A stretch of 50,806 bases of DNA from Pirellulales bacterium (GTDB lineage Bacteria; Planctomycetota; Planctomycetia; Pirellulales; JACPPG01). Of this stretch, positions 8,538 through 14,114 are shown piece after piece. The stretch is taken from NCBI GenBank assembly GCA_035546535.1, contig DASZWQ010000128.1, positions 1 to 50,806 on the forward strand. The letters run 5' to 3'. Position numbers and translations under genes: made by a program. The stretch's first letter is position 1. Every line of letters begins with the position of its first letter. The notes beneath the pieces are model-generated. The model had not been told where the DNA came from. It did no database searches and saw only the letters and a list, made by a program, of their open reading frames with translations.

Positions 8538-8746
8538 CCCGCCCGCTTTTGACCCAAAGCGGATTGTCCGTGAACGTTTTTCGGCGACAGCGCTTGACCC
8601 ACACGTGCCTGTCGTCGTGTTTTTTGCAGCTGTTGATCTCCCGCGCTTCTTGTTGACCGTTCGCGCGCCGCGGCGTGCGCCGCCAGGCGTATTCGCCAAC
8701 GACGCGCGTGTAACGGATTGCCAGGCCGCCAGGCCGCGGAGTTGCC

Positions 8747-10698: not shown

Positions 10699-12387
<1,689 letters not shown>

Positions 12388-12400
12388 TACCGAAAGGCAC

Positions 12401-12430
12401 AACCGCTGGCCGCAAGGCCAGCGGTTTTTT
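12401..12430 (+). terminator. Intrinsic terminator of the dnaG-rpoD unit
   Basis: Eleven-base perfect stem (AACCGCTGGCC / GGCCAGCGGTT) with a GCAA tetraloop at 12412-12415 and six T's at the end (12425-12430). It starts 13 bases after the rpoD stop codon. Confidence 0.93.
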
Positions 12431-12477
12431 CATTTATGAATCAGGCAAATCTTGAAAAGGACGGGAACCAACGCCCC

Positions 12478-13206: not shown

Positions 13207-13579
13207 TATCCGGCGATTTTGATCGCGGTGCGGGTTTGATCGCGGTGCGGGCGAGGAGTGCGGCTTGCCGCGGAAGTGATCCGAGCGGAATTCAGGCCGC
13301 TATTCGCCGTTTCAAAACCGTGGTCGGGTGCCGCTGGTGGCTCGCCCACCAGTGAGGAAGTCTCGATAAAAGACTGGTAGACAAGCTACCAGTGGCACAC
13401 TTGCGGGAGCGTTCGTCAGGCATTTTTCAAACAGCGTCTCGGTCGCCGGCAGTGACGAATCGCCGCCCGTTCATTCCGCGGCGCTGGTCGCCTGACTGTC
13501 ACTTTAGCAAGGTCGGCTCGAGTGCCTCGAAACACCACTTTACACGGCTGTTACGGCCCGACAAAATGACCAATCGTCG
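13207..13579. other. Intergenic region upstream of greA
   Basis: No gene. It holds a perfect tandem duplication of 17 bases (TTTGATCGCGGTGCGGG at 13218-13234 and 13235-13251) and a full copy of the paired-hairpin repeat (13328-13398, listed separately). The greA promoter must lie in its last part, upstream of the attenuator hairpin; no clear consensus boxes were found. Confidence 0.5.
13328..13398. repeat. Paired-hairpin dispersed repeat, copy A
   Basis: A 71-base element bounded by GTGCC and GGCAC. Hairpin 1: CTGGTGG / CCACCAG around CTCGC (13334-13352). Hairpin 2: ACTGGTAG / CTACCAGT around ACAAG (13373-13393). It is nearly identical in sequence and design to 46386-46455. Confidence 0.85.
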
Positions 13580-13611
13580 TGCGGCCTCCCAAACGGGGGC
13601 CGCATTTTTTT
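13580..13611 (+). terminator. Terminator-like hairpin in the greA leader (probable attenuator)
   Basis: Ten-base stem TGCGGCCTCC / GGGGGCCGCA (one G-T pair), five-base loop, followed by seven T's (13605-13611). It ends only 20 bases before the greA start codon, with the greA ribosome-binding site in between, so no promoter fits after it. Any transcript reaching greA must read through it. Confidence 0.8.
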
Positions 13612-13631
13612 CGCCTTGGGAGTGAAGAGAC

Positions 13632-14114
13632 ATGTCTGACGTCATCCCCATGAGCCGCGGCGGCTACGACAAGCTCAAAGCCGAACTCGAGCACATGGAA
13701 CAGGTGGAAATGCCGAAGATCGCCCAGCGAATCGCCGCCGCGCGCAGCGAAGGTGATCTGAGCGAAAACGCCGAATACCACGGCGCCCGCGAATCGCAGG
13801 CGATGATGCAGGCCAAGATCAACTTGCTGCGCGACAAGCTGAGTCGGTCGCGCATCGTCGACCCGGCCACGCTCCCCAAGGACGAAGTGGTGTTCGGCTC
13901 GACGGTGGTCGTCAAAGACCTCGACTTCGGCGACACCGAAGAGTTCACGCTCGTCGGCGCCGGTGACGAAGACTATGACAACGGTAAGATCCAGATCACG
14001 AGCCCCCTGGCCCAAGGCCTGGTCGGACACAAGGTGGGCGACAAGGTCGAGATCCAGGTTCCGCGCGGGACGATGAAATTCGAGATTCTGGAAATTCGCG
14101 CTGGGCTGGAGTAG
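13632..14114 (+). CDS. greA: Transcription elongation factor GreA
   Basis: Rescues backtracked RNA polymerase by stimulating transcript cleavage in the secondary channel. The 160-aa protein has the N-terminal coiled coil (residues about 8-78) with the signature [18 protein letters not shown], including the acidic DL.EN tip residues at the hairpin turn, then the FKBP-like C-terminal domain ([20 protein letters not shown]). The length is standard. The start is preceded by a GGGAGTGAAGAG purine stretch. A terminator-like hairpin directly before the ribosome-binding site implies control by attenuation. Confidence 0.97.

Follow-up and report, generated by a model that had tools for sequence, protein, structure and literature searches.

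A likely promoter-proximal terminator in the greA leader of Pirellulales

In the Pirellulales contig DASZWQ010000128.1, a hairpin followed by a run of T residues stands directly before greA. Does this element end the transcript of the genes upstream, or does it belong to the leader of greA itself and bear on how much GreA is made? We analysed the whole stretch of 50,806 nucleotides (the window), together with the greA loci of related genomes.

A promoter-like site and a hairpin before greA

The window carries a plus-strand row of dnaG, rpoD, a gene for a coiled-coil/zinc-ribbon protein and greA, whose product has the tip sequence GDLSENAEY and is the single PF03449 match in its genome. From the end of the zinc-ribbon gene (13206) to greA there are 425 bases, and the putative promoter, hairpin, T-run and ribosome-binding site fall within the last 93:

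13539 to 13544, plus strand: -35 hexamer TTTACA of the putative greA promoter (from sequence and a conserved pattern)
13562 to 13567, plus strand: -10 hexamer CAAAAT of the same promoter, spacer 17 (from sequence and the conserved pattern)
13574 to 13611, plus strand: predicted short leader RNA of about 38 nt, its start placed 7 nt behind the -10 hexamer
13580 to 13589 (13579 to 13589 with the outer pair), plus strand: 5' arm of the stem, TGCGGCCTCC (sequence, terminator scan and alignment)
13590 to 13594, plus strand: hairpin loop CAAAC (sequence)
13595 to 13604 (13595 to 13605 with the outer pair), plus strand: 3' arm of the stem, GGGGGCCGCA (sequence, terminator scan and alignment)
13605 to 13611, plus strand: seven-T run TTTTTTT (sequence)
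13618 to 13622, plus strand: likely greA ribosome-binding site GGGAG (by eye)
13632 to 14114, plus strand: greA, 160 aa, transcription elongation factor GreA (TIGR01462, 173.1 bits; cut-off 139)

The original prediction described a 10-base stem with seven T's ending 20 bases before the greA start codon, and this is exact to the base: the 10-bp stem spans 13580 to 13604 with its loop, and exactly 20 bases lie between the end of the T-run and the ATG at 13632. A further, outermost pair is a G-U (13579 with 13605) that uses the first T of the run. An independent terminator scan recovered the hairpin with 11 pairs, this G-U included, eight of them G-C, and the hairpin script gave a dG of -21.2. 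The predicted 38-nt leader (13574–13611) folds at -21.7 kcal/mol (z = -4.4), which none of 200 shuffled sequences equalled. The greA hairpin is among 16 terminator-like sites in 10 kb, compared to 9.2 ± 3.0 in shuffles. A second hairpin, in which the U-run pairs with the region of the ribosome site, is also predicted in the window.

The original prediction did not mention the promoter-like site ahead of the hairpin; this site is conserved in relatives. Its -10 hexamer lies 11 bases from the stem-loop (13579). No promoter was expected to fit behind the hairpin, and we agree: there are only 20 bases there, with no -10-like hexamer visible by eye. When the pattern TTTACA-N15..18-[CTA]ANAAT was scanned for within 220 nt of greA, it was found in 51 of 118 loci of the order (one masked locus, L036, excluded), while shuffled sequences gave a mean of 0.06 and a maximum of 1. 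A hairpin (dG ≤ -8) follows in 49 of these 51 loci, with a spacer of 17 in 43 of the 49. The stem begins no more than 16 nt after the -10 hexamer in 36/49 loci and no more than 35 nt after it in 44/49. The distance from T-run to ATG varies from 25 to 143 nt. If transcription starts 7 nt behind the -10 hexamer, the terminated RNA would measure 25–74 nt in 44 loci (median, 39.5 nt); the short leader RNA that had been proposed as a by-product is thereby supported as a prediction, at about 38 nt in the window. When we took the most stable hairpin behind the promoter and did not require T's, 27 of 42 had at least six T in ten, a shortfall partly due to the T-run itself becoming paired. By sequence, then, an intrinsic terminator lies in the greA 5' leader; sequence and conservation place a greA promoter upstream of it and none behind.

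Conservation of the element in relatives

Looking for the hairpin before greA in relatives had been suggested as a check. Our sample of the order held one greA locus from each of 119 genomes: 49 came from 51 genomes with a match in a first search (the other two matched only partly), and 70 from a second search with greA matches in 238 of 247 genomes. These 70 comprise the ten best new loci and 60 chosen manually, in most cases one for each genus. With a threshold of dG ≤ -12, followed by at least six T in nine and no more than 150 nt from the greA start, a hairpin with T-run was seen in 75 of the 119 loci, compared to 5 to 20 of 118 in ten rounds of dinucleotide shuffling (L036 being masked by N). 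For controls, the same scan was applied to four other genes in the relatives and gave 8/119 (rho 0/30, nusA 4/30, efp 1/29, rpsT 3/30), with the caveat that the rho and nusA start codons are uncertain and their upstream stretches may be partly coding. Promoter and hairpin together occur in 26/50 greA loci versus 0/119 control loci of the same genome batch. Within the window's own genome (322,826 bases, genes called by a custom script), 149 genes have 100 nt or more of upstream gap; such a hairpin precedes nine of them, and the combination of promoter, hairpin and T-run within 60 nt is unique to greA. On these sequence comparisons, the hairpin before greA is not due to chance.

Distribution of the element is uneven. 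At threshold it is absent from 44 of the 119 loci, including all 19 of one family (f8); a looser cut (dG ≤ -8) raises the counts to 80/119 for the order and 2/19 for f8. A second sample, fetched by protein scan, gave a hairpin in 31/80 and hairpin plus promoter in 18/80, although it overlaps the earlier genomes and, judged by its titles and contigs, seems rich in the family that lacks the element. Among six named strains, which include Lacipirellula, Bythopirellula, Botrimarina, Aeoliella and Adhaeretor, five have the hairpin at threshold and four of these five (Lacipirellula limnantheis I41, Bythopirellula polymerisocia Pla144, Botrimarina colliarenosi Pla108 and Aeoliella straminimaris ICT_H6.2) also carry the promoter pattern; the sixth, Adhaeretor, has by eye a similar hairpin with fewer T's. 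At dG ≤ -12, the hairpin was found in 16 of 34 loci from other orders of the class (6/6 in family f22), two of the 16 (L169, L171) being doubtful in that the "hairpin" includes a TTTACA motif. In other classes of the phylum the count at this cut was 4/20, to be read beside about 10/118 in the shuffles of the order sample. The GreA match in those other classes often lies within a frame of at least 700 codons, and GreA may there form the end of a longer protein.

To assess the stem, we aligned 37 hairpins, namely the 53 that passed a stem-motif and length filter minus 16 dropped by eye as more divergent or longer. At nine of the 11 stem pairs both partners vary (nine aligned sequences, for instance, have G-C in place of C-G), and 84.3% of cells are paired, compared to 44–60% when the partner is slid by one to three columns. 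Since the sequences were preselected as hairpins, these paired changes are support for the stem and not proof of it. The alignment model (R1) ranks the greA hairpin first in the window's own genome (E = 5.6e-5; next, 0.037) and in 6 of 9 relatives, with another site higher in G004, G016 and G017. The ranked greA hairpins sit in R1's own alignment and are bound to match it; the information gained is the scarcity of other sites that resemble them. R1 matches elsewhere were considered as greA-like leaders and rejected: 10 of the 14 examined sit 28–78 nt behind the end of a same-strand ORF (ORFs called mechanically), like ordinary terminators. In two genomes of the genus (G000, G001), a greA-like hairpin (L219 and L215, both 1201–1233) precedes an ORF with a shared N-terminal stretch, MPIRVSNIRLG-; this hairpin may be a further case of a leader terminator, or it may end the preceding gene. 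A stem core, G[GA][CT]C[TC][TC], was present in 49/75 greA hairpins versus 9/139 other hairpins of the own genome, as a motif picked post hoc. Loop and flanks differ among relatives.

Whose terminator, and what sets read-through

One alternative is that the hairpin terminates the upstream dnaG–rpoD–zinc-ribbon cluster, with greA expressed by leak-through or from an undetected start. The upstream gene in the window does lie on the same strand, with no other strong plus-strand terminator in the 425-base gap, and L007 has the hairpin within the 74 nt that separate its zinc-ribbon gene from greA. However, a conserved promoter precedes the hairpin, and greA's own RNA would therefore contain it. Moreover, in six loci (L006, L014, L019, L035, L059, L076) the upstream ORF is on the opposite strand and read away from greA, yet all six keep the hairpin at dG ≤ -12, so it cannot be that gene's terminator. 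Of the five of these ORFs compared with Pfam, four are recognisable (enolase, GIY-YIG/UvrC-like, CheX and MraZ) and the one in L019 had no match.

The spacing between the zinc-ribbon gene and greA also counts against upstream termination. Among loci with under 100 nt between the zinc-ribbon gene and greA, a single one of 19 has the hairpin; the fraction is 7/11 at 100–150 nt, 20/22 at 150–250 nt and 10/12 beyond, and 37/55 where no zinc-ribbon gene was found in the available stretch. In f8, all 19 genomes lack both promoter pattern and hairpin, and greA follows the zinc-ribbon gene by 52–138 nt (L022, L027, L067, L072 and L111 are examples of such loci). The simplest reading of these patterns is that the element accompanies greA's own promoter and has been lost along with it. 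We consider termination of the upstream cluster improbable, and the terminator very probably sits in greA's own leader.

Other signals in the row were seen as well. A strong terminator (12401–12435; 11 pairs, then TTTT) lies between rpoD, which ends at 12387, and the zinc-ribbon gene, ending just a few bases before the latter's ATG at 12436; the zinc-ribbon gene too would therefore be read through a terminator or from a very close start. A weaker layout of promoter, hairpin and T's (8572–8635) stands 127 nt before the start of dnaG, with dnaG and rpoD behind. In L100 and L101, the last 135 bases before greA hold, by eye, a tRNA-like stretch that ends just before the hairpin, and greA may there be read from a tRNA promoter through the hairpin.

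The reading we favour, and regard as probable, is that of an attenuator: an intrinsic terminator close to the promoter, within the leader of greA itself. We infer that RNA polymerase would start at about 13574, complete the hairpin by ~30 nt and reach the T-run at 13605–13611; in the cell, a large share of transcripts would then end as the ~38-nt RNA, and the remainder would read through to give greA mRNA. A classical antiterminator needs upstream RNA that competes for the 5' arm. Here, with the start placed as above, the transcript has about 0–9 nt ahead of the stem in most relatives (36/49 loci, those with the stem within 16 nt of the -10 hexamer) and about five in the window, such that an antiterminator made of upstream RNA is hardly possible and no competing upstream structure was found. 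Read-through is then probably set by the polymerase and its factors, or else is a fixed tax. Most likely, it would depend on the state of the elongation complex, meaning GreA itself, NusA/NusG or speed, in which case the element would act as a valve on the GreA level, by analogy with E. coli GraL (PMC6829880).

Two other devices were considered. A leader peptide ahead of the stem is excluded, as there is hardly any RNA before the stem; the one candidate frame (ATG at 13566, 19 codons to a TGA at 13623–13625) has its ATG partly inside the -10 hexamer, ahead of the predicted transcript start. CTCCCAA (13586–13592, in the 5' arm and loop) is complementary to TTGGGAG (13616–13622), which raised the idea of a translational switch. 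We rejected this as a general mechanism: L003 and L005 have, by eye, a shorter complementary stretch, and the distance from T-run to ATG is variable.

The terminator might instead be a fixed brake, which cuts greA expression by the same proportion at all times and responds to no signal. This is a possibility of some weight, although not our leading one: room for an alternative structure is absent, and several families live without the element. But a weaker promoter would be a simpler way to the same end, many families share the arrangement and some of the stem sequence, and the E. coli counterpart responds to GreA (PMC6829880). It is improbable that the hairpin mainly protects the 5' end of greA mRNA or that the leader RNA works chiefly in trans as an sRNA. 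The stem does begin almost at the predicted 5' end, and E. coli GraL also acts in trans (PMC6829880); yet protection would not need a T-run, the differing loops and flanks leave no common unpaired seed, and no Rfam family reached its gathering score at the greA leader (the best overlapping scores were 17.1 and 14.8 bits versus gathering scores of 58.7 and 39).

For the attenuator proposed originally, then, the parts that stand are a terminator in the greA leader, a promoter of its own and conservation in relatives; the regulatory half is plausible only. Whether read-through is regulated seems to us evenly balanced. Feedback by GreA, taken alone, is conjecture, and we would put it somewhat short of even. 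Feedback with an origin separate from that of E. coli GraL and with no need for an RNA switch, whereby a bare promoter-proximal terminator with a sequence-specific stem would sense GreA in the polymerase, is rather unlikely.

Comparison with GraL and other greA attenuators

Only roughly one in three greA transcripts of E. coli gets beyond the leader terminator (PMC6829880). According to the same source, deletion of greA raises a leader fusion ~3.5-fold and lowers GraL ~4-fold; GreA thus increases termination in vivo, which amounts to negative feedback. The effect involves the GreA tip residues D41 and E44, requires D41, the leader and the stem sequence, and is reported there as not reproduced in vitro. 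The planctomycete locus resembles GraL in its layout, in which a promoter is followed by a terminator hairpin and seven T's in the greA leader, and in the length of the leader RNA (predicted ~38 nt versus 37–59 nt for GraL; PMC6829880). Stability is similar too, with a dG of -21.2 compared to -19.3 for the proven E. coli greA leader terminator (same script, seven T in both). In contrast, the stem sequence differs, about 5 nt precede the stem here versus 18 in GraL, and the start of the T-run lies 27 nt from the ATG here versus 101 in E. coli.

The original prediction left the choice between independent and conserved autoregulation. Conservation holds within the order, while a shared ancestry with E. 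coli GraL finds no support: GraL was the best of ten weak R1 matches in 4 kb of E. coli sequence (8.4 bits, E = 0.5), and any strong terminator may score alike.

Naville and Gautheret (2010; PMC2965389) predicted greA- and rnk-leader attenuators with a terminator upstream of greA. Their ranking of attenuated families has greA/rnk in seventh place, with occurrences in Proteobacteria, bacilli and Clostridia, and they described a clear antiterminator for each cluster, whereas here the upstream RNA hardly leaves room for one. Planctomycetes and Rhodopirellula are unnamed in the main text of that paper, and the titles and abstract openings of open-licence PubMed Central articles yielded no report of a greA leader in planctomycetes. 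The greA leader terminator described here would extend the kind known from Proteobacteria, Bacilli and Clostridia to Planctomycetota, in a stripped-down form. Terminators close to the greA promoter would then occur in several phyla, with stems that look unrelated; should they have had several origins, some property of GreA itself would favour this form of control. Because the minimal planctomycete version has no room for an antiterminator and is kept over an order with cultured members, it could provide a clean comparison for the E. coli feedback, which is seen in the cell and not in the test tube.
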